From a virus: a stretch of DNA of 33,447 nt. The translations under genes were made by a program, and so were the position numbers. The DNA lies in the IMG/VR virus record IMGVR_UViG_3300042868_004815, positions 1-33,447 of that record, one strand, 5' to 3'. This document shows, piece after piece, positions 5,803-23,484 of the stretch. Positions within the stretch are counted from its first letter, which is position 1. The number at the start of each line of letters is the position of its first letter. The notes under the pieces are model-generated. The model was given only the letters and a program-made list of their open reading frames with translations. It was not told where the DNA came from and searched no databases.

Positions 5803-5857
5803 GCTCTGTAATCTATGGCATCATACCACGCAGCCTTATCGTTGACAAGTACCATGC
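5765..5857. repeat. Imperfect direct duplication at the terS start
   Basis: Two related segments, 5765-5804 and 5825-5857, share ACCACGC, then an exact CCTTATCGTTGA (5775-5786 and 5834-5845), then ACCATGC, with a 7-nt length difference. One copy carries the terS ribosome binding site and the ATG; the other lies upstream. It may be a duplicated translation leader, a TerS/packaging-site element or a regulator site. Confidence 0.55.
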
Positions 5858-5904
5858 CACGCTGACCGAGTGATGGTGGTGCTACGTAGAGTAGGCCCGC
5901 GCTC

Positions 5905-5920
5905 GGGGGTACCCCCCCCC
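5905..5920. repeat. 12-bp perfect palindrome with C9 run
   Basis: GGGGGTACCCCC at 5905-5916 is a perfect palindrome, followed by more C residues so that C runs from 5912 to 5920. It is an unusual word even in a GC-rich region. It could be a protein binding site or a slippage-prone tract where length heterogeneity would be expected in reads. Confidence 0.45.
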
Positions 5921-6036
5921 ACGGCACCCACCCGCGCTACCCGCGCCCCGCGCTCGCGTTCTACGCCACCGCGACCGGCGGGCATCCGCGCCGCTCCGCC
6001 CCGCGTCCCATCCGCCCCGAGCCGCGCCACGCCGGG

Positions 6037-6064
6037 CCGTTTGTCTGGCCCCGTTTGTCTGGCC
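6037..6064. repeat. 14-bp tandem repeat
   Basis: CCGTTTGTCTGGCC occurs twice with no spacer, at 6037-6050 and 6051-6064. It is non-coding and the only T-rich island in a C-rich stretch. It may be an iteron-like or regulator site, or a simple duplication. Confidence 0.6.
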
Positions 6065-6255
6065 GCCTTCAATGAGACGTGCGCGGGCGCGAGGACACCG
6101 GACGGCTTGGCGAGAGGATCTCGCGCACCACCCGCCCCGCGTTCCCCGCGTTCCCCGTGCCACCCCGCCACCCCGCGACAACATCGGGGGCGACATCGAC
6201 CACCCGCGAGATCCCGGCACCCGCCCCGGCGTCCCCGTGCTCGAGCCTTGCCGGC

Positions 6256-6343
6256 TTGCTCTTGCCACCCTCGCCGGCTATGGGACATTTCATCCCCCCG
6301 CGTTCATTAGCTTTGTGTAACAGTCGCTGCTTTTGCTCTTGAC
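6256..6343 (+). repeat. Paired TTGCTCTTGMC motifs, left flank of plus module
   Basis: TTGCTCTTGCC (6256-6266) and TTGCTCTTGAC (6333-6343), each followed by ACCCTCGC, lie 77 nt apart just upstream of the plus-strand genes. Two further copies lie just downstream of the module at 9550 and 9584. The second copy contains a perfect TTGACA, so they may be -35 regions of related promoters. Confidence 0.5.
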
Positions 6344-6366
6344 ACCCTCGCACCCGTCCCCATGTT
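6339..6366 (+). promoter_or_regulatory. Candidate promoter of the plus-strand module
   Basis: TTGACA at 6339-6344 is a perfect -35. The best -10 at a 16-nt spacing is CATGTT (6361-6366), only half consensus. The first gene begins 58 nt later. The very C-rich leader between them lacks a ribosome binding site. Plausible but weak. Confidence 0.35.
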
Positions 6367-6424
6367 GGGAGGGTTCCACCCGCACCACCCCCCGCGCCAC
6401 CCACCCACCACCAAGACCCCCGCC

Positions 6425-6652
6425 ATGCTTCTAGACATCGACAGCACCCAGCCCACCGACCGAATCTTGAAGATCACCCGCACCGTCTACGTTCGTGCCG
6501 AGGACGCGGACGACGAACGCCGCGCCTTCAATACCTACTGGTTCGAAGAAGCCCCGGCGATGATGATCGAGGCCGAGAAGGTAGAGGAAGGCACCGTGGA
6601 TTCCTTTGAACTGAACTGCTTCTTCCCGCTTGCCGAGGATCCCGCCGTATGA
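6425..6652 (+). CDS. Small acidic protein, first gene of plus module
   Basis: 75 residues from ATG 6425; an earlier in-frame ATG at 6362 would add a His/Pro-rich translation of the C-rich leader and is not credible. The protein is acidic with a TRTVYVRAEDADDE strand-helix segment and an EEAPAMMIEAEKVEEGTVDSFEL segment, suggesting one small alpha/beta domain. No family was recognised. Its stop overlaps the start of the AAA+ ATPase gene as ATGA, so it is probably co-translated with it and could be an adaptor or substrate. There is no Shine-Dalgarno sequence before its start. Confidence 0.65.
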   Translation: MLLDIDSTQPTDRILKITRTVYVRAEDADDERRAFNTYWFEEAPAMMIEAEKVEEGTVDSFELNCFFPLAEDPAV

Positions 6653-8037
6653 GTACCCCCCTAGACCGCCGCCCCCTCGACACCCTCGACGGGCTCGAAG
6701 TCGGGCGGCAGGTGAAGCTAGGCGCAGCCATCCCGGACGCCCGCCAACTCATCCCCGCCGTTTCCCCGTCTGTTTTTGATATTGAAGCCGCCGGGTATCG
6801 CGGCACGATTGACCAACTCCTTACAGCCTCGTCCCGGTTCGCTGTCACCATCCCGGACGGCACACGGGGAATTGTGTTGCACCACGGGGGAGGCGTGACC
6901 GCCGTCGCCTTTGTTTGGAAGACGCCCAAGTCGGAGAAGATCACCGCCGCCGTCTGTTGGATTCATGCCCACCACCTAGTTAACCACCGGGGAGCGCCAC
7001 CGCTTCCCGGCGAGAAACCCAAGACCACCCCAGCAGATCCCACCACCACCCCAGCCCCCGCCACCGTGGAACCGTCCTCGATGTTTCAGACCTTGACCGC
7101 CACCACCCCTGCTCCACCCGCCCCGATGGCTGCACCGGCACCCGTCGCCGGGAGTCTGGATGCCATGCTTGCCGCCATCGTAGACGCCCGCGTCGGTGCC
7201 CGCGTGTCGGCACTGGAGGCCGAGCTAGCGAACCGGCCCGCCGGTACGTCGGTGCATCATGTACGGATCAACAACGCCGACCCGGTGGCGTTGACTGCCC
7301 GCCCGCACGTTCGCCTGCCCCACGTTCTCGCCCGCGCCTCGATGCGGAAGGGGAACGGGGGTCGGTTCAATGTGCTCATGGTCGGCGACGCCGGGACCGG
7401 CAAGAGCACGATAGCGGCCCACGTGGCGGAGGCGCTGGGGTTGTCCTTCCGCGCTATCTGCTGCTCCGGGGGGCTGACTGAGGGCGCGCTAGTGGGCCGA
7501 CTCACCCCGAATCTGACAACCGGCGAACTTGTCTACACCCCCGGCCCGCTGGTCGAAGCGTTCCGCGACGGTGGCGTCTTTCTCCTCGATGAACTCGACG
7601 CCGCCGACGAGAACGTTCTTCTTGCAATCAACGCCATGATTGACGCCCCGGTATGGCATACGCCGACCGGCGAAGAGATCCCCCGCTCGCCTAGCTTTGT
7701 TCTACTGGGCGGCGCGAACACTTACGGTACGGGCGCTTCCCGGATCTACAACGGGCGCACCCAGCTAGACGGCGCGTTCCTGAACCGTTGGTTCAACGTG
7801 CCGGTCGACTATGACACCGAGCTAGAACGGACGTTGTGCGCGTGTCTGGAGATCGCCGACCGCATCCAGAAGGCCCGGGCCGTTATCCGCACCCGCAACC
7901 TTCGGCGGTGGCTGACCACCCGCGACATCCTCAAGGCTGACGCGCTGGTAGGGCAACTGGGCGTGACTGTGGCCGACGCGCTCCGGGAGATCACCGAAGG
8001 GTGGACCGACGAGGACCGCGCCCTTCTTTCGCTTTGA
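6649..8037 (+). CDS. MoxR/CobS-type AAA+ ATPase
   Basis: 462 residues. MoxR-family AAA+ proteins form hexamers that remodel or insert metal into partners, usually with a VWA protein encoded next door. Here residues 1-115 form an unknown N-domain. Residues 120-170 are a Pro/Thr/Ala-rich linker. The ATPase core follows with Walker A GDAGTGKS (246-253), CSGGLTEGALVGR (272-284), Walker B FLLDELD (311-317), sensor-1 Asn in LLGGANT (near 357) and an FLNRW arginine (380). These features match CobS/MoxR-type phage ATPases. The start overlaps the previous gene's stop; the VWA-like partner follows 11 nt after the stop. The N-domain makes it longer than minimal MoxR proteins. Confidence 0.88.
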   Translation: MSTPLDRRPLDTLDGLEVGRQVKLGAAIPDARQLIPAVSPSVFDIEAAGYRGTIDQLLTASSRFAVTIPDGTRGIVLHHGGGVTAVAFVWKTPKSEKITAAVCWIHAHHLVNHRGAPPLPGEKPKTTPADPTTTPAPATVEPSSMFQTLTATTPAPPAPMAAPAPVAGSLDAMLAAIVDARVGARVSALEAELANRPAGTSVHHVRINNADPVALTARPHVRLPHVLARASMRKGNGGRFNVLMVGDAGTGKSTIAAHVAEALGLSFRAICCSGGLTEGALVGRLTPNLTTGELVYTPGPLVEAFRDGGVFLLDELDAADENVLLAINAMIDAPVWHTPTGEEIPRSPSFVLLGGANTYGTGASRIYNGRTQLDGAFLNRWFNVPVDYDTELERTLCACLEIADRIQKARAVIRTRNLRRWLTTRDILKADALVGQLGVTVADALREITEGWTDEDRALLSL

Positions 8038-8048
8038 GGGCCGCCGTC

Positions 8049-8951
8049 ATGTTCCGCATGCATACCGACACCCCTTCCACCACGTCCATCGTATCCGGGA
8101 GCGTAGCCGATATGGCCGCGCTTCTCGATATCGCCAACATCCCGGAGCACAACCACGACCGATGGCAGAGCAACGTTAACGATCTCGCAAACGCCTACGG
8201 ATCCATGCGGAAGGATTCGTTCGGCGGGCTGTCCTCGATCACCGAGGCAAAGGAAATCTTTGAGCGGCAGGGGTGGCAAGAGGGAGCAGACCGCGCCCGC
8301 GCCGAGATCCCTTCGCTAAATCTTGGCGACTTCGCCCCGGAGGCCGTTGCCATAAAGCGCCGCCGCACCTTCGCAGACGCGGGCGACACGCTCCGCGTTG
8401 AAGCGGCGCTGTCTGGGAACTGGGATCAAGCCTACGAGACGCGGACAAAGAGGGCCACGCGCCAGCCGGTCACGTTGTCGGTGGGCTGCGCCTTCGGTGG
8501 CCCCGGCGAGATCACTCACGAAGAAATGTTCTGGACCGGGCTACAGATGGCCGCGTTATGCGATGTGTTGGAGGGGGCCGGGTGGCGTATCGAACTCCGC
8601 GCCTTGAAGGCCAACAACTTCGGGAGCACCGGCAAGGTCCACGCGCAGGATTGGACCGTGAAGCAGTCCGACCAACCCCTGCGCCTCGACACCACCCTAG
8701 CCCTCTTCGGCCACGCGGGCGTGTACCGTTCGCACGGCTGGGCCGCACTCAGCGCAAGCAGCTACAAGAACCCCGGCAACGGGGGGCACGTTCAACGCGG
8801 AACCGTGCTGGTGGAGACGTTCCGACGCCTAGCCGCCGCCTCGATCATCCCGCCGCTTTCCCTCATCATCCCGCAAGCGTACAGCCGAGACGAGGCCGTC
8901 CGCAATCTCACCGCCGCACTCAAGGCCGTAAAAGATCCGGGGGTCGCATGA
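8049..8951 (+). CDS. VWA-like partner of the ATPase, metal site degenerate
   Basis: 300 residues from ATG 8049, with GAGGG 8 nt upstream. An upstream in-frame start overlapping the ATPase gene is less likely. Residues 50-85 contain SFGGLSSITEAKEIFERQGW followed by QEGA. Residues 139-190 read PVTLSVGCAFGGPGEITHEE, then a helix and AGWRIELRAL, which is the order of the first strand, loop, helix and second strand of a von Willebrand A fold. The usual metal-binding DxSxS is absent (VGCAF instead). I place it with VWA-like phage proteins (DUF7192/CobT-like) by pattern and by its position after a MoxR ATPase. The partnership is inferred. Confidence 0.65.
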   Translation: MFRMHTDTPSTTSIVSGSVADMAALLDIANIPEHNHDRWQSNVNDLANAYGSMRKDSFGGLSSITEAKEIFERQGWQEGADRARAEIPSLNLGDFAPEAVAIKRRRTFADAGDTLRVEAALSGNWDQAYETRTKRATRQPVTLSVGCAFGGPGEITHEEMFWTGLQMAALCDVLEGAGWRIELRALKANNFGSTGKVHAQDWTVKQSDQPLRLDTTLALFGHAGVYRSHGWAALSASSYKNPGNGGHVQRGTVLVETFRRLAAASIIPPLSLIIPQAYSRDEAVRNLTAALKAVKDPGVA

Positions 8952-9040
8952 CAACGCCCCCGGACGTTGTACCCGATGCCGTGATCTATGCCGCCGTCGT
9001 TGTCCTCGCCGTGCTTGTTACCCGCTGTTCCCTCCCCTAA
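8948..9040 (+). CDS. 30-residue single-pass membrane peptide
   Basis: The frame starts with an ATG overlapping the VWA-like gene's stop (ATGA) and encodes 30 residues. A short polar N-terminus (MTTPPDVVPD) is followed by one hydrophobic helix (AVIYAAVVVLAVLVT) and RCSLP. A GGGGG run lies 4-8 nt before the start. The 4-nt coupling and a clean transmembrane segment argue that it is real. If so, it could anchor or regulate the ATPase/VWA pair at the membrane. It might instead be fortuitous; there is no homology evidence. Confidence 0.45.
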   Translation: MTTPPDVVPDAVIYAAVVVLAVLVTRCSLP

Positions 9041-9053
9041 CCGGATCCCCACC

Positions 9054-9452
9054 ATGCTCAACGCCTATCTGATCGACTCGACCCGCGCCGAAGCCGTCAC
9101 CCACCCGCTCACGCTTGCCGCCATGCAAGACACCGTAGGGGGCTACATCGCCCCGGCGTTCACCGTCCCCAGCCCGACCCGCCCCGGCTTCGCCGTGACC
9201 GGCTACGTCAACGACGAGGGAATCTTAATGGACCTTCCCCTTACACTGGTGCATACCGAAAGCGAGGACCCGTTATTCGGCCCCGTGCTGATTTGCGGCC
9301 TCGATGAAGAAACCGGCGACACAACCCCGCTCGATGCTGACGAACTGGCGTGGATCAAGAGCCGCCTTCGCTTGCTGGCCTCGATGGGATCCTTCAGCCC
9401 GGAGGGAGGCACCAAGACCCGCGCCGTCCACGGATTGTACCTAACCGCGTAG
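9054..9452 (+). CDS. DUF3846-like protein
   Basis: 132 residues from ATG 9054. The order LNAYLIDSTRAEAVTHPLTL, then LAAMQDTVGGYIAPAFTV, then VNDEGILMDLPLTLV, then FGPVLICGLD is the DUF3846 pattern (short strand, helix, VGG-x-I, NEEG/NDEG, then G-P-hydrophobic strand). These small proteins are common in phage and plasmid accessory regions and have no settled function. It is the last gene of the plus module, 13 nt after the small membrane peptide. The ribosome binding site is poor. Translation would enter a C-rich, G-poor stretch after the stop. Confidence 0.75.
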   Translation: MLNAYLIDSTRAEAVTHPLTLAAMQDTVGGYIAPAFTVPSPTRPGFAVTGYVNDEGILMDLPLTLVHTESEDPLFGPVLICGLDEETGDTTPLDADELAWIKSRLRLLASMGSFSPEGGTKTRAVHGLYLTA

Positions 9453-9549: not shown

Positions 9550-9594
9550 TTGCTCTTGACGAGCACCGCCGCCCCGCCGCCGGTTGCTCTTGCC
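9550..9594 (+). repeat. Paired TTGCTCTTGMC motifs, right flank of plus module
   Basis: TTGCTCTTGAC at 9550-9560 and TTGCTCTTGCC at 9584-9594, 34 nt apart. They are the same two variants found upstream of the module at 6256 and 6333, in reversed order. Confidence 0.5.
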
Positions 9595-14169: not shown

Positions 14170-14405
14170 TCGGCAGACTCCAGCTCCAGAAACAGCGCCA
14201 CAAGGCACCCGTTAATTGGCGGGCACCAGCGGTTCGGCTTTACCGATGCCTTGAGGTGCGATTCAATCCGCACACACATCGTACGGTAGGTGAAGTTGTC
14301 AATGTTCCGATCTAAATACAGGTCGTAGGCGCGCAGCCACAGGGAATAATCCGCTTGCACCGCATACTGCTCCGCGATTGCTCGCCATGCTTGGCTCTCG
14401 TTCAT
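14166..14405 (-). CDS. Small hypothetical protein
   Basis: 79 residues from ATG 14405, overlapping the previous stop as ATGA and the next GTG start as GTGA. A longer frame upstream is only a shadow. It is aromatic-rich and helical (QYAVQADYSLWLRAYDLYLD, then TYRTMCVRIESHLKAS) and ends with a hydrophobic strand GCLVALFLELE. No family was recognised. It sits directly before the primase-helicase and may be a replication accessory. Confidence 0.6.
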   Translation of the reverse strand: MNESQAWRAIAEQYAVQADYSLWLRAYDLYLDRNIDNFTYRTMCVRIESHLKASVKPNRWCPPINGCLVALFLELESAE

Positions 14406-14959
14406 TCGGCATACCAGACAATCGACTGCCGCTTGATCGGCGGGATGCCGTCGATGTGGGTGAAGCTGCTGTCTTCGATCAACACGCGGTCTTGCGGCAA
14501 GAGCATCAACGCCCGATCCGCTTCTCTCTCCACGATCCACAAGTGCTTGTGCTGCTCTGGTGCCATGCTGTACCCGTCGCCCATGTGGTCGATACAGAAC
14601 CAGAGGGTGCCCCTGCCTATCGCCCGCTTGTGATCCTCGCTCAGAATGGCACAGGCAAGCCCAGACAGGACTTCTGGCTGCCATGCCTCGGCACTCCACC
14701 CGAAACAGTCCCACGACACCAGTGCTGGCAGAGCAAGCGGGGCGTACTCGACCATCTCCCCCCGCAACGCATGAAGCGGGACATCCACCACCAGCGCCCC
14801 GTTCTCCAGTAGGACGTGACATCCGAGCGCCCGACCCGGCGTAACACTCACGCCGACCCACATCGCAGGGATCAGCGCCGTCCGCAGCGGGTCACGCAGG
14901 ACGAAGCTGGGGACAACGTAGACGTAGCGGTGGGTGGGCAAGCTGACATTATGCGACAT
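14402..14959 (-). CDS. Conserved phage protein of unknown function
   Basis: 185 residues from ATG 14959, with AGGTG 6 nt upstream. The pattern LPTHRYVYVVPSFVLRDP, then AMWVGVSVTPGRALGCHVLL, WDCFGW, SMAPEQHKHLWIV and LLPQDRVL recurs in hypothetical proteins of phages from proteobacteria and soil/freshwater metagenomes. It is beta-rich and has no nuclease or NTPase motif that I can see. It overlaps the initiator gene by 11 nt, so the two are likely coupled in replication or host takeover. Function unknown. Confidence 0.7.
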   Translation of the reverse strand: MSHNVSLPTHRYVYVVPSFVLRDPLRTALIPAMWVGVSVTPGRALGCHVLLENGALVVDVPLHALRGEMVEYAPLALPALVSWDCFGWSAEAWQPEVLSGLACAILSEDHKRAIGRGTLWFCIDHMGDGYSMAPEQHKHLWIVEREADRALMLLPQDRVLIEDSSFTHIDGIPPIKRQSIVWYAE

Positions 14960-15668
14960 GTGGTTCACCTGTGTAGGAGAGAGAAAGTCGATCAAACTCG
15001 GCCACATCTTGCCCAGACCGTGCCCACTCCTCGCGGGTGCGCCCATGCACCAGCACTAACTGGGTGTAGTGTTCCCATGCGCCATCTGCAAAGAATTTGT
15101 GGATCGTCTTCACATAGCGGGGGTCGATCTGCTTGCGACGGACTTCATCCGCGTACAGGAACGCCGCTGAGATCAGACGGTTGGGTTCTGCGCCGTCGTC
15201 AATGCACCCAGCAACGGCGCGGACAGCAGGCGGGTAGAGGTGTGGCGTATCCCGCTTGGGGTAGAAATCCCAGATTGAACCACATACTTCTCGCGCAATG
15301 CTTTTGCTATCGTTCTTCTTATCGTTCTTCTTATCGTTAGGGTGACTCAGTTGAGTCTGGGGTGGGGTGACTCCCGTGACGGGGGTGGGTGACTGTGGTG
15401 TCAGGGGTTCCAGCGCAATTTCATACACCGTCGTGCGCCCCGGACGCTCAACGGAGTGCAGATACCCGCGCTCGATCAGCTTCGGGATCGCACGTTGCAC
15501 GGTGCGAGGAGATAGCGCACAGCCCTTCGCCATAGTCTGAACGCTGGCCCATACATTCCCGCCGAGGCGGTTGCTGAACGTCCCAATAGCGCATAGCACA
15601 CGGATCTGCGTGTCACTAAGTTCTGGGTCAGCAACCGCATGGGCGGGGATAATCGAAAGGTTTGGCAT
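14949..15668 (-). CDS. Winged-helix replication initiation protein (DnaD-like)
   Basis: 239 residues. Residues 16-85 form a helix-turn-helix of the replication-protein type (LSDTQIRVLCAIGTFSNRLG, then SVQTMAKGCALSPRTVQRAI and LIERGYLHSVERPGRTTVYE). A linker of about 40 residues contains NDKKNDKK from a 12-bp tandem repeat. The C-terminal part (IWDFYPKRDTPHLYPPAVRA, then RYVKTIHKFFADGAWEHY) resembles phage replisome organisers that load the helicase. Its place upstream of the primase-helicase supports origin binding. The origin itself is not identified. Confidence 0.78.
   Translation of the reverse strand: MPNLSIIPAHAVADPELSDTQIRVLCAIGTFSNRLGGNVWASVQTMAKGCALSPRTVQRAIPKLIERGYLHSVERPGRTTVYEIALEPLTPQSPTPVTGVTPPQTQLSHPNDKKNDKKNDSKSIAREVCGSIWDFYPKRDTPHLYPPAVRAVAGCIDDGAEPNRLISAAFLYADEVRRKQIDPRYVKTIHKFFADGAWEHYTQLVLVHGRTREEWARSGQDVAEFDRLSLSYTGEPHVA
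15309..15338. repeat. 12-bp tandem repeat in initiator linker
   Basis: ATCGTTCTTCTT is present at 15309-15320 and 15321-15332 and half again to 15338, encoding the Asn-Asp-Lys-Lys repeat between the two domains of the initiator. Such repeats vary in copy number by slippage and would change linker length. Confidence 0.75.
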
Positions 15669-18335: not shown

Positions 18336-18601
18336 TTCTCTGCCCTCCCTTCCATTTTGCTAACCCGATCACTGATGTCCCGGGTCAGCATATAGATGTC
18401 TCGGATATCGTGATGCATGGATGCCACATCCCGCTCCACGGTTTTGACTGTCACCCGCATCATCCCCCACGACACCGCCACGCCGACCACCCCAGAGATC
18501 AGGGCAATCGGTACGCCGCCCAACGGACTTGACTGTGCCGCCGCCGTGCCAGCAGCGGAGGCTGCGCCGATCAGGAGGGCGGTACTTGTTTCAGCGGTCA
18601 T
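18332..18601 (-). CDS. Holin-like/lysis membrane protein with coiled-coil tail
   Basis: 89 residues. A small-residue N-terminal stretch (TALLIGAASAAGTAAAQ, 7-23) and a hydrophobic segment (GGVPIALISGVVGVAVSWGM, about 28-47) precede a charged helix (DVASMHHDIRDIYMLTRDIS then DRVSKMEG). This layout resembles XhlA-type lysis proteins or one-helix holins. It is translationally coupled to the endolysin (ATGA), which is the main argument. The other candidate holin is at 3015-3320; one may be an antiholin or pinholin partner. Confidence 0.65.
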   Translation of the reverse strand: MTAETSTALLIGAASAAGTAAAQSSPLGGVPIALISGVVGVAVSWGMMRVTVKTVERDVASMHHDIRDIYMLTRDISDRVSKMEGRAEK

Positions 18602-21600
18602 CGCTTGGGGACTCCGATTAAGGCTTCTGACAGTGCTTGCCCGCGCTCGCGAAGAATCTCTAGCGCGATCTTTCGGTCTTCAGGAGAATAGCTGTTGTCT
18701 TTGCGGATCTTTGTTCGGAGACGGGACAGCTTTTCAAGCTCTGTTTCTAGCGGCTGAATCCGCTTGGCTAAGTCTAAGTCATCCATGTGCTTCTCCGCAA
18801 AGTCGAGCAGCTTTTCGCGATCTCCTATCCGCTTTAGCTCTTTGTAGTCTACCTCGATCTGCGTCAACTCACGCAACCGCTCACGGGCCATCGCCTCCGG
18901 GTCAGTCTGCCCCTTCGTGCTAGTCGAGAACCGCTCCGCAAACCGCCCAATAACCGGGATGCGGGCCTGACCGGCAGGAGGCTCAGACGCTGGGACACCC
19001 TCCTCCCGCGCCACAACATCTATGAACTTCGATGCTTCAGCCCCCGCCGTGCCAAAGGCGTTGCGGATGAAGAAGTCCGTCTTCTCAGGGCTAACGCCAG
19101 CCTTTGCCAAAGCGCGGGCAATAGCGGAAGACTCGTCGGTAATCTGCAACTCTGGGGAAAGCTGTGGCCGCGACACAATCGGCCTGTTCCTGAACACGTC
19201 CTTATTCATATAAAGCTGGGCGGGGAGCGAAAGCACTTCAGGGACAGGCAGCGTCCCCTCAAGCGTTGCAGTCCCGATGTCCGCCGCAGAACGCTTCAAT
19301 GCGCGCCCCGGCTCTGCTACCTGCGGGCTGGCGCTCTGGATCTCTCCAAAGAACGGGAGGTCTAACCCAGCCTGCGTGGCATAGTCCAGCGCCCGTTCAG
19401 GCAGGGAGGCAAACAGGAACCCCAACTCGAAAGGCTTTGGGATACGCCAGAATCCTTTTTCACCTTCAGCCCCCACCGCACTCTTCGGGACCAACCAGAA
19501 CAAGTTGCGCTCGTATATCGGGCGCTCCCAGTATTCCGGGTTGTCCTTGTTAATCGACCAGAGCGCGAGACTGGGCGCAGTCAGCATACCAACCGCCAGC
19601 GGATACGTCTTCGGGTCTTTCATCATGCGGGCGAGCTTGTCCCAGCCCTGCACCTTTGCGTTCCAGAACGGGGTCATCGCCGCAAGGTTTTTGACAGACT
19701 TGCTCCCGCCGCTGCTTGCAAACCGCAATGTCCGGTCCTGCGCGAAAAGCGCGGCTTCTGCCCCAGACATCCCGGCGTCAGTGGCTTGCCGAAACGCCGC
19801 AACGCGAGTGGCCTGCTCGCCAATGCTGCCGATCTTACGGAGCGTTTGCCACCAGTTTGTCGGGATAATAATGTCGCTGACCGAAAACCCCGGACCCTTT
19901 TCTAAGTCCTTGAGAATCTTTGCCGCATCATTAGCGTTGCGGACAGCAAACCCTTCAGTCGATCCACCGTTTGCCAAAAACTCCCGGAAGATTTGTTCGT
20001 TGAACATGATTTGCTTAACGGCACCCAATGTTTGCGCGAGTGGGCGCGCATATAACCCCACGCCGACGCCAAGCCCTGCCCCGGTCATAAACCGTTTGAC
20101 AGCACTTTCCTCAGAGTCGGCAGTCACGGCTCCCGTTGTTCCGCCAACAAGCGCGCCCAGACCGCCCTCACGCGCAGCGCGCCCGAGGTCTAAACGCTGG
20201 ACCCCAGACATTGCCACGTCTCGGATTACGTTTGCGGCGGCAAAATCTGGCAACACCGTAATGCCAGCCGTTTGCACGTTTTTCATTAAGCTGGCAAACT
20301 TGACAATCGCATTTGCCGATACATCGTCTTGGCTGGACAGCGCATCCATCAAGTCTTTGTCGTTAACGCGGTAGGTGTACAGCTTGCCCCCACGGACCTG
20401 TTGTATGATGTCCGGTCCCTTCGGAGGGGACATCGGATCAGCCTGTATCCGTTCAATAAGCGGAAGCCCGTTTGGGCCAACCATTTTGTTTGCATCGGCA
20501 ATGCTGAAGATCACGTTGGATGCGCGCTGCTTTGACACGTCACGATACGTCCGTGCTGCGTCGGAAATGACCATCTCCAACGGGTCCGCCGTCTTCTCAA
20601 ACGCCTCGGCGGTGCGGTCCATCTTGCGGACGCCAGAGCTAAACACGTTGAACTTCCCAGACCGTGCCCCCGGCGTGGTGCGGACGGGGCCAGCATCTTG
20701 GACAATCTCGCGGTAGAGCGGCGTGTAGAAGTCATCGCTCTTTATGATCGCATCATACGCTTCGTCGGTCAGCAGCCCCGCTTTGTACCGCATCTCCAGC
20801 AACTCACGGTGCATCTCGGTAATGCGGTCTGCAACACCAGCAATCTTTGGGTTCGCGTTGCCCGCAGCTACCCCACGTTCAAGCACGTCCGTTGGGACAT
20901 CAGACTTTGCGGCTCCCCCAAGCTGACGGATCTGCAAATCACGCCGCGACTTGAGCAGCCCGCGAACAGATTGCTTCTCTTCTTTGGAAAGCGTCCGAAG
21001 CAGCGGAGAAAGGTTGTCTTGCAAATACCCTTCAGCCGCACGGCCAGACCCTTGCTTTTGAGCAACAAGACCCGGAAGCTCTTTCCCCTGCTCGGGACTC
21101 CCAAACCGTCGGGCAGCTTCCTCAAGCGGGTACGTCTCAGACACCAGCTTGCCGTACAACCGCTGTGCTCTGGTCAGCATCCCCGGGACTTCTTCAGCAC
21201 CCGCACGTTTCCCGGTGTTGATGGTCCCCATGATTGCCGAGAGTTCGGGGATAGACGGCGCGACTGCCCCGCCCTTCCCCCGCATGGCGCGGCCAATCCC
21301 GACCCCACCGGCAGCCCCAGCCGCCCCGTACAGCAACGCTCGCTGCAAAGGGGACATCCCGCCTTCTTCGTCAGTCGCAACGCCAGCCGTTGCTCCAGCC
21401 CCGAACCCGCCAAGCCCCTGAACCAACGCCGGGTTCGCAAACCCAGACGGAGGAGGACGCTTGAGTCTCTTCAGTTCGGCAGCGTTCTCTTTGTCTAACG
21501 CCTGTTGTTCGGCCTTTTTCGCAGTGGCTTCTGCTGACGCTCCCTTGGCTGGGGTTACTGGCTCTGGCATAAGCTCACCTTCAATCTTGCCAGACCGTAC

Positions 21601-23484
21601 CCCCTCGTTGAAGCGCCGAACGTATTCTTTTTGCGCCAAGTACTCTGACTTTCGCAACGGGTTCAGCACAAGGCGCGCCTTATCAACGGCACGTTTCTGG
21701 TCAAAGTAGTCATCACGATCTGCAAACCCAGCTTCTTCAAGTCGAGCCAAGTTTTCGTCGCTGATCCCCCGCTCGCGGGCGTTCTTCTCAGCAGCCGTCT
21801 CAATCAACTCGCCAGTAACAGGGTTTCTTACCGCCTTCTCGCGGGTCGCCTTTGCCCGCATCCCCGGCGTCAGGTTTGGGGAACGTGTCTTGCCCTTAAA
21901 GCTTTCGATCACGCCGCCAACCCGCTCGTCCCAGCTATTTACCAGAGACTCAAGCTCGGCAATTTTCATCGCGCGGTTGTTGAGAATCTCCTCAAGCTGG
22001 GTATCCGACGCTTTGGCAAGATTGATCTTCTTGTTGCTCTCCGCTGCAATCTTCTCCCACGGCATATCCCGGAACGCTTCAGGGGCTTCTGCGCCAACCA
22101 CTGACGCTTCTCCCAAAACTTCCTGCGCGGCTTGCTCCATCGCGCTGTCTGGCGTCCGCTCTAAGTCTGGAGCGTTCTCTGCCCTCCCGCCAATGATGCC
22201 AGTCTTGCGGAGTCGTTCCCGCAACTCGCTTGGCGATCCGATGCCTTCTCGGATGTTAATGTCACGCAGCTTCCTCGCTTCTTCGGCGCTCGCAAATGCC
22301 TGCTCGATAGGGGTGCGAGCAACCCTTGCTCCCCCAACAGACTTGCCAGCCGTGTATGCGCCAACTTCTGCGGGTTCCGCCGTGAGGGCCGCAGGCATCT
22401 CAAACTCTGGGCGCTTGGCAAGGACTTCAGCCGCCGTGCGCCGACCAGTTCTCTGTACCACGGCAGGAGCTTCTGCCCCAGCCGCTTCCGGTATAGGCGG
22501 CATCCTAAACAACGGTTGCGCCGACCCTGCCTGCGCCTTCGGGGCAAGCAAGCGATTGATCTGCGTTTCTGCGGCAGCCCGTGGGACGTACCCATCTTTT
22601 CTGGACAACGACGGGACGACGGACTCAGCGGCTTCGGGCGCTCCCTCGCGGATGCCTTGCGTGAAGGCATCGCCAAGCTCGTCGCCAACACGCCCCAGCT
22701 TTCGGACCGACCGCACGGCTCTTGGAGTAGCCATCAACCCGGGGATGGCCAAGTCAAATGCGGCATCAGCTAACGCTCGGGTTAGCGGGTCGTCAATGTT
22801 TCGTCCTACGGTGCTGAACTCTTTGCCCGCCGCTGACTCTACACCGGAACGGAGTGCGCCCATCGCAATCCCAGACGGGATAAACGCCCCCATCTCTGCC
22901 CCAGCGCGGAGCAGGTTGATTGGCAGTTTATCAACGCCCACCGCTTTGGCTAAGGACTTTGGCAACGGGATTGTGACTTCCCCAAACCCAGTTTGCGGGG
23001 CGGTGCTCTCTTCAATCTCTCGCGTCTGCTCGGCCAGTCGCTCGGCACGGGGATCGTTGCGGAGTCGAGCAATGCCCGTGGCGGTACGATACAGTGTCCG
23101 CGCAGGCTGACCCGCAATAGATCGCCCGATGTCTTCTGCAACAGCAACGGCCCCCTTTGCGCGGGCAAGTTGAAGCGCCTGCTCCTTTGTTAGCTCCGAC
23201 TCGTCGCCAAACGGGGCCGTTTTCTTTGTACCCTGTGCAACAGCGCGGGCAAGTCGCTTCTCAAACTCTTTTGGAGCAGGGGCAGACGTGACGACTGGAG
23301 CCACCCCAGCGCCAATGCCAATGCGGGGGCCAGCACCAGCCGTTATCCGCCCTGCCTTCGGGAACGGATCTTCCAGCAAAGGCGACAGTGCAGAATCTTT
23401 GATCGCGGTTTCTGCATCACTGGTGCGGAACGGGTTCCCCTTAGACGTAACGGCAGTCGTTGCCTGCTTAAAGGGGTTACCCAT
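18598..23484 (-). CDS. Giant internal/ejection protein with LPD38-type region
   Basis: 1628 residues, the largest gene here. Residues 1-700 are Ala/Glu/Lys-rich and probably elongated. Near 700-750 a Gly/Ala-rich stretch (GGFGAGATAGVATDEEG, then ALLYGAAGAAGGVGIGRAMR) looks membrane-active. Residues about 1060-1420 contain VLPDFAAANVIRDVAMSGVQ, TPFWNAKVQGWDKLARMM and ERPIYERNLFWLVP, which I recognise as the large polyvalent protein type 38 pattern. The C-terminus is a charged helix. Such proteins are packaged inside podovirus heads and injected with DNA. It lies downstream of two other Gly-rich virion genes and before the lysis genes. Confidence 0.75.
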   Translation of the reverse strand: MGNPFKQATTAVTSKGNPFRTSDAETAIKDSALSPLLEDPFPKAGRITAGAGPRIGIGAGVAPVVTSAPAPKEFEKRLARAVAQGTKKTAPFGDESELTKEQALQLARAKGAVAVAEDIGRSIAGQPARTLYRTATGIARLRNDPRAERLAEQTREIEESTAPQTGFGEVTIPLPKSLAKAVGVDKLPINLLRAGAEMGAFIPSGIAMGALRSGVESAAGKEFSTVGRNIDDPLTRALADAAFDLAIPGLMATPRAVRSVRKLGRVGDELGDAFTQGIREGAPEAAESVVPSLSRKDGYVPRAAAETQINRLLAPKAQAGSAQPLFRMPPIPEAAGAEAPAVVQRTGRRTAAEVLAKRPEFEMPAALTAEPAEVGAYTAGKSVGGARVARTPIEQAFASAEEARKLRDINIREGIGSPSELRERLRKTGIIGGRAENAPDLERTPDSAMEQAAQEVLGEASVVGAEAPEAFRDMPWEKIAAESNKKINLAKASDTQLEEILNNRAMKIAELESLVNSWDERVGGVIESFKGKTRSPNLTPGMRAKATREKAVRNPVTGELIETAAEKNARERGISDENLARLEEAGFADRDDYFDQKRAVDKARLVLNPLRKSEYLAQKEYVRRFNEGVRSGKIEGELMPEPVTPAKGASAEATAKKAEQQALDKENAAELKRLKRPPPSGFANPALVQGLGGFGAGATAGVATDEEGGMSPLQRALLYGAAGAAGGVGIGRAMRGKGGAVAPSIPELSAIMGTINTGKRAGAEEVPGMLTRAQRLYGKLVSETYPLEEAARRFGSPEQGKELPGLVAQKQGSGRAAEGYLQDNLSPLLRTLSKEEKQSVRGLLKSRRDLQIRQLGGAAKSDVPTDVLERGVAAGNANPKIAGVADRITEMHRELLEMRYKAGLLTDEAYDAIIKSDDFYTPLYREIVQDAGPVRTTPGARSGKFNVFSSGVRKMDRTAEAFEKTADPLEMVISDAARTYRDVSKQRASNVIFSIADANKMVGPNGLPLIERIQADPMSPPKGPDIIQQVRGGKLYTYRVNDKDLMDALSSQDDVSANAIVKFASLMKNVQTAGITVLPDFAAANVIRDVAMSGVQRLDLGRAAREGGLGALVGGTTGAVTADSEESAVKRFMTGAGLGVGVGLYARPLAQTLGAVKQIMFNEQIFREFLANGGSTEGFAVRNANDAAKILKDLEKGPGFSVSDIIIPTNWWQTLRKIGSIGEQATRVAAFRQATDAGMSGAEAALFAQDRTLRFASSGGSKSVKNLAAMTPFWNAKVQGWDKLARMMKDPKTYPLAVGMLTAPSLALWSINKDNPEYWERPIYERNLFWLVPKSAVGAEGEKGFWRIPKPFELGFLFASLPERALDYATQAGLDLPFFGEIQSASPQVAEPGRALKRSAADIGTATLEGTLPVPEVLSLPAQLYMNKDVFRNRPIVSRPQLSPELQITDESSAIARALAKAGVSPEKTDFFIRNAFGTAGAEASKFIDVVAREEGVPASEPPAGQARIPVIGRFAERFSTSTKGQTDPEAMARERLRELTQIEVDYKELKRIGDREKLLDFAEKHMDDLDLAKRIQPLETELEKLSRLRTKIRKDNSYSPEDRKIALEILRERGQALSEALIGVPKR

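Follow-up and report, generated by a model that had tools for sequence, protein, structure and literature searches.

The MoxR-type AAA+ ATPase and the DUF7192 protein encoded side by side in IMG/VR record IMGVR_UViG_3300042868_004815 belong to a conserved phage unit, in which the two genes are paired far beyond chance. We propose, with a probability of about 0.7, that this pair is a remodelling ATPase of the NorQD type working with a VWA-like partner, and that it most likely acts on a host protein or complex.

Organization of the plus-strand module

The window, that is, the whole stretch of DNA analysed here, is the entire record of 33,447 bases. An earlier note, made from the sequence alone, described a lone plus-strand module in an otherwise leftward genome. 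This description holds: the five plus-strand ORFs and the two ATGA stop/start overlaps that it listed are seen in the sequence, spanning positions 6425-9452, and every gene recognised by PHROGs elsewhere in the window is on the minus strand (TerS, TerL, portal, primase-helicase, replication initiation, exonuclease, and tail genes). The module begins with a 75-residue acidic protein (6425-6652, +), the ORF of which overlaps the ATPase gene (6649-8037, +; 462 residues) at 6649-6652. The DUF7192 gene follows (8049-8951, +; 300 residues) and overlaps, at 8948-8951, a hydrophobic ORF of 30 residues (8948-9040, +) that is unproven as a gene, and a DUF3846 protein of 132 residues (9054-9452, +) ends the module. 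GC content by codon position supports the 75-residue, ATPase, DUF7192, and DUF3846 ORFs as coding but says little about the 30-residue ORF, for which the evidence is the start/stop overlap and hydrophobicity alone. The ATPase/DUF7192 pair adjoins the terminase genes and is oriented opposite to the structural genes. No DNA match to the module was found in cultured phages, and the closest cultured-virus match of the window TerL, at about 35% identity at best, is that of Halorubrum phage Hardycor1.

Several other features of the window were recorded. Between the terminase small subunit gene and the module is a GC-rich gap of 620 bp (5803-6424) with several short direct repeats, in which the ORFs are not coding-like by codon-position GC. 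The sequence TTGCTCTTG occurs on the plus strand at 6256-6264, 6333-6341, 9550-9558, and 9584-9592, twice on each side of the module and in the same orientation, and five times in the window in all, against 0.24 expected. Two of these copies read TTGCTCTTGAC, with a -35-like TTGAC(A); the copies could be promoters or repeats flanking a cassette. No clear Shine-Dalgarno stretch was found upstream of any of the plus-strand gene starts (6425-9054), which may hint at a host independent of such sites. On the minus strand, a gene at 14405-15046 in the replication region matches PHROG 3704, labelled ferredoxin, and a protein of 1628 residues (18598-23484) has as its sole match PHROG 9854, a group for which the function is not known.

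The AAA+ ATPase

The 462-residue protein is an AAA_5/MoxR-type ATPase of the CbbQ/NorQ/CobS group. It matches PF07728 (AAA_5) at 1.3e-19, with a score of 71 bits against a cut-off of 22, and phrog_249 at 2.6e-38, and it consists of an N-terminal domain, a proline-rich linker, and an AAA+ module starting at about residue 238. The Walker A motif GDAGTGKS is at residues 246-253, just where the earlier note had placed it in calling the protein MoxR-type. Walker B follows at 310-315, sensor-1 is N357, and the arginine finger is R380; G251, K252, D314, E315, N357, and R380 are invariant in a 55-sequence alignment of the ATPase family. By alignment, the helix-2-insert region is LVGRLTPNLTTGELVYTPGPL, which contains a GR motif. 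PF08406, the CbbQ/NirQ/NorQ C-terminal domain, is absent from the Pfam matches of the window ATPase. In a sequence-profile comparison, its nearest solved relatives include midasin, CobS, NorQ, and CbbQ, all of which partner VWA domains. The structural model, confident from about residue 200 and of low confidence over the first 140 residues, has as its best PDB match the NorQ chain 9qhd_A (E 1e-17); ranks 1-16 of this search are NorQ chains, and ranks 1-21 are all NorQ or CbbQ. Phage relatives of the ATPase carry the labels CobS or porphyrin biosynthesis, and hundreds of staphylococcal phage records contain the ATPase.

The DUF7192 partner

The 300-residue protein matches PF23822 at 1.3e-20, scoring 74.4 bits against a gathering cut-off of 27. 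An AlphaFold2 model built from 61 sequences (pLDDT 86.8, pTM 0.82) retrieved four confident PDB matches, all of them VWA chains of NorD: 9qhd_G (3.2e-4), 9qh6_G, 9qh8_G, and 9qhe_G. These matches have E values of 3e-4 to 6e-3 and probabilities of 0.97-1.00, only NorD chains exceed a probability of 0.9, and the next match drops to E 0.3. Because the TM-scores are low (0.28-0.38, with large rmsd), the predicted likeness to NorD is to be read at the level of the fold only. Sequence comparisons did not extend it: none of 61 DUF7192 members matched VWA family models at E values up to 1, a sequence-profile search of PDB chains gave only matches at chance level, and the DUF7192 profile scored three CobT-like proteins within the range of 300 decoy ORFs. 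A motif likeness before strand 1 (GxLDxxKL in comparison with GDEVDxDRL) was dropped following this negative CobT-like profile test.

The MIDAS motif DxSxS-T-D is lost from the window protein, which has A148, G150, and P152 instead, and it is eroded across the family: of 61 members, 2 retain the strict DxSxS at the end of strand 1 and 10 have a relaxed form. Residue R227 is conserved in 58 of these members. In NorD, the MIDAS is needed for the client but is dispensable for NorQ binding (PMC9976466). Its loss is therefore no argument against a complex with the ATPase, while it does argue for a different mode of holding the client. The earlier designation of the protein as VWA-like may hold for the fold, where NorD VWA chains are the top matches but at TM-scores of about 0.3; it does not hold for the sequence, which matches no VWA model and has no MIDAS.

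Conservation of the pair across phages

Scans of viral contigs with the single window proteins returned almost nothing, so family alignments were needed. In annotated phages of Acinetobacter, Sinorhizobium, Mycobacterium, Staphylococcus, and Rhizobium, the ATPase gene is followed by one for a protein of 280-390 residues, which the family profile and the Pfam model identify as DUF7192; phages of Listeria and Gordonia and a crAss-like phage also carry the pair, and in an Enterococcus phage the partner is upstream of the ATPase. The co-occurrence of the two genes elsewhere, which had been set beforehand as a test of the proposal, was found from both directions. When viral loci were picked by the ATPase alone, DUF7192 was beside it on the same strand in 76 of 80, and in the other four the sequence stops within about 320 bp of the ATPase. 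PF23822 run over whole viral records picked for the ATPase detected DUF7192 in 47 of 50, the three exceptions being contig-edge cases among these four truncated loci. When loci were instead picked by DUF7192 alone, the ATPase was present in 19 of 19, in one of them 4 kb away. All of 107 pairs are co-oriented, the ATPase is first in 102, and the median gap is 6 bp; these pairs are not independent events, as some loci are near-duplicates and the two scans overlap in part. PF23822 also had matches in 11 of the 13 named phages whose records were examined, and the pair was found at 8 of 12 loci in bacterial genomes. The one bacterial locus that was looked at individually, in a 2-Mb Planctomycetota contig, is probably a prophage, since the pair lies there among phage-type replication genes and a terminase. 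Pairwise distances of the ATPase and DUF7192 across 52 loci correlate with r = 0.80, uncorrected for shared phage ancestry (at most 0.13 in 5000 permutations), suggesting that the two proteins have diverged together.

The surroundings of the pair are variable. It is found among replication and repair genes in the crAss-like phage cr115_1 and among small genes near the genome end in Sephiroth and Aegeus. Clustering of flanking ORFs from 53 loci revealed no widespread third gene, with at most five loci per cluster once the two largest clusters had been set aside as apparent antisense ORFs of the two genes themselves. In Rhizobium phage P106B (L008:3105-6351), the pair, set between the head and the tail genes, is also counter-oriented, and the ATPase is separated from DUF7192 by two small ORFs, one having a hydrophobic N-terminus. 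Some genomes have two DUF7192 genes: those at L084:6965-8727 are in tandem, and Mycobacterium phage GuuelaD has copies at 67980-68804 and 71854-72693, separated by 3 kb. In phiM5, the annotated ORF 65 (L004:1349-1546) is nested out of frame within the ATPase gene; it is noted as found in the phage particle proteome, and its peptides may merit re-assignment.

The system is therefore one of two genes, the ATPase and DUF7192, and not the four-gene set that had been suggested, which is rejected because the tiny proteins are without relatives elsewhere. The 75-residue protein has no relative in phages or among the ORFs of related loci, the 30-residue protein has none among those ORFs, and neither has a Pfam or PHROGs match. 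A neighbourhood search for the ATPase, the VWA-like gene, and the 75-residue protein together, as the earlier note had envisaged, recovered the first two but not the third. The identification of DUF3846 was borne out (PF12957, 7.5e-14), its membership of the set was not: it was detected in 4 of 50 pair-bearing records, each time on the strand of DUF7192 and some 1-1.5 kb away from it, and also in phiM5, and is an occasional, optional satellite, downstream in the window and outside the core.

Proposed mechanism and alternatives

In the NorQD complex, the VWA domain inserts a finger into the pore of NorQ, where it contacts the helix-2 inserts, and the C-terminus of NorD meets the post-sensor-1 loop; rotation of the VWA domain has been proposed to result from ATP turnover (PMC13036017). 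Finger insertion has been proposed to be general for MoxR/VWA couples (PMC9976466). From the pairing, co-divergence, fold resemblance, intact ATPase motifs, and MIDAS loss observed for the phage pair, we infer a machine of similar design. The AAA+ protein would form a ring, probably a hexamer, with DUF7192 seated on it as a dedicated VWA-like partner. A finger of DUF7192 would enter the central pore and contact the helix-2 inserts, and as ATP is hydrolysed around the ring the partner would be twisted, deforming the client protein bound to it. With the MIDAS on which NorD depends for its client absent, the client would be held in a metal-independent manner. Since the pair has no conserved third gene next to it, this client would most likely be a host protein or complex found in many bacteria; a virion component that each phage encodes at another site is less likely. 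The variable neighbours together with the broad range of hosts would favour a host client. The strongest single argument for this mechanism is that the models of the two proteins, predicted separately, each match one half of NorQD. Together with the two-way adjacency of the genes, these independent structure searches, which lead to the same NorQD complexes, support the original comparison of the pair with NorQD. More tentatively, the pair may represent a phage-specific branch of MoxR/VWA systems, common to unrelated tailed phages of many bacterial phyla, in which a VWA partner devoid of a metal site remodels a widely conserved host complex during infection.

Other functions can be considered for the pair. 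It is unlikely, though deserving of attention, that it is a chaperone of virion assembly that matures a capsid or tail complex, as ATV p618/p892 may in extracellular tail development. The MoxR protein p618 binds the VWA protein p892 and virion proteins (PMC4124505), and the pair is beside terminase genes in the window and between head and tail genes in P106B. However, no structural gene recurs widely at the pair, its neighbours differ by locus, replication and repair genes surround it in cr115_1, small genes near the genome end do so in Sephiroth and Aegeus, and in the window it runs counter to the structural genes. We likewise doubt that the pair is a counter-defence machine dismantling one kind of bacterial defence complex. 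Its presence in very different phages with variable neighbourhoods would fit such an accessory trait, but no defence or anti-defence gene recurs beside it, and in hundreds of staphylococcal phage records the ATPase appears more core-like than sporadic. PADLOC matches were weak and confined to the ATPase domain (mad8, 9e-4; IetA, 7e-3), with none for DUF7192 and nothing beyond a generic P-loop.

A viral cobaltochelatase of the kind suggested for haloviruses and cyanophages, in which a CobS/CobT pair joins host CobN and raises cobalamin production, is highly improbable. The CobS and porphyrin labels of the phage relatives and the place of CobS among the nearest solved relatives of the ATPase would agree with such a function, and in the proposal of Liu et al. 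viral CobST takes over the CobN of the host (PMC8651126). The ATPase, however, scores 22.5 bits with the CobS equivalog model TIGR01650, for which the cut-off is 558.55, and its partner is DUF7192 and not CobT, with no match to TIGR01651 and without the MIDAS motif; the cyanophages with cobS lack DUF7192 and have another partner, in which a DWSGSM motif is intact. The hosts also argue against it, as the pair is found in phages of staphylococci and of Listeria. Nine staphylococcal species do not require B12 and are without B12-dependent enzymes (PMC8123684), and Listeria is described as having an anaerobic B12 pathway (PMC8123684), where the cobalt chelatase is not CobNST. Ribonucleotide reductase (PF02867) was found in just 4 of 21 pair-bearing records tested. 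With the CobS model failed, the MIDAS lost, and the pair in phages of staphylococci without B12, identity with CobS/CobT is argued against.

Relation to known systems

The remodelling pair proposed here unites two poorly annotated families, an ATPase labelled porphyrin biosynthesis and the hypothetical protein DUF7192, as a single testable machine. The pair occurs in such well-studied phages as staphylococcal phage K and mycobacteriophages, and the CobS/porphyrin label common for the ATPase clade is argued to be misleading. If the client is indeed a host complex, this would be a new phage way of remodelling host machinery. In the literature searched, which was confined to main texts available without subscription, DUF7192 is not mentioned, nor are a DUF7192 branch, its NorD-like fold, the reciprocal linkage to the ATPase, or the spread over unrelated phages. 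Viral MoxR/VWA pairs as such are already known, from ATV (p618/p892), haloviral and cyanophage cobST, Hardycor1, and 0305phi8-36, so that the earlier suggestion of an undescribed phage system does not hold in the strict sense, and Liu et al. may have counted some ATPase/DUF7192 pairs as cobST.

NorQ/NorD, the chaperone pair of nitric oxide reductase (PDB 9qhd, 9qh6; PMC13036017), shares with the window pair adjacent genes in one operon and a helix-2-insert region with a GR motif in the ATPase, and it provides the best PDB match of the ATPase and the only confident one, the NorD VWA chain, of DUF7192. NorD differs in having an intact MIDAS, a large N-terminal domain, and a linker, and the window locus has no NOR client and a DUF7192 protein lacking sequence similarity to VWA models. 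Viral cobST (haloviruses of the Druskaviridae and Saparoviridae, cyanophages; PMC8651126) is similarly a two-gene combination of a MoxR-type ATPase and a VWA-type partner, but the partner in the cyanophages examined has 711-740 residues and an intact DxSxS, compared with 300 residues and no motif in the window DUF7192, and their records hold no DUF7192. The p618/p892 pair of Acidianus two-tailed virus also combines a viral MoxR ATPase with a VWA protein, for which interaction and stimulation of the ATPase were shown experimentally (PMC4124505); in this case the virus is an archaeal spindle virus, the proteins are larger, and the ATPase is virion-borne and modelled on RavA. Linked genes for a MoxR-type ATPase and a partner are found in two further tailed viruses, as aaa/vwa in Hardycor1 (PMC7911831), which has the TerL nearest to that of the window but a partner of 711 residues with a vWA-MIDAS, and as orf66/orf63 in Bacillus phage 0305phi8-36 (PMC2147016).
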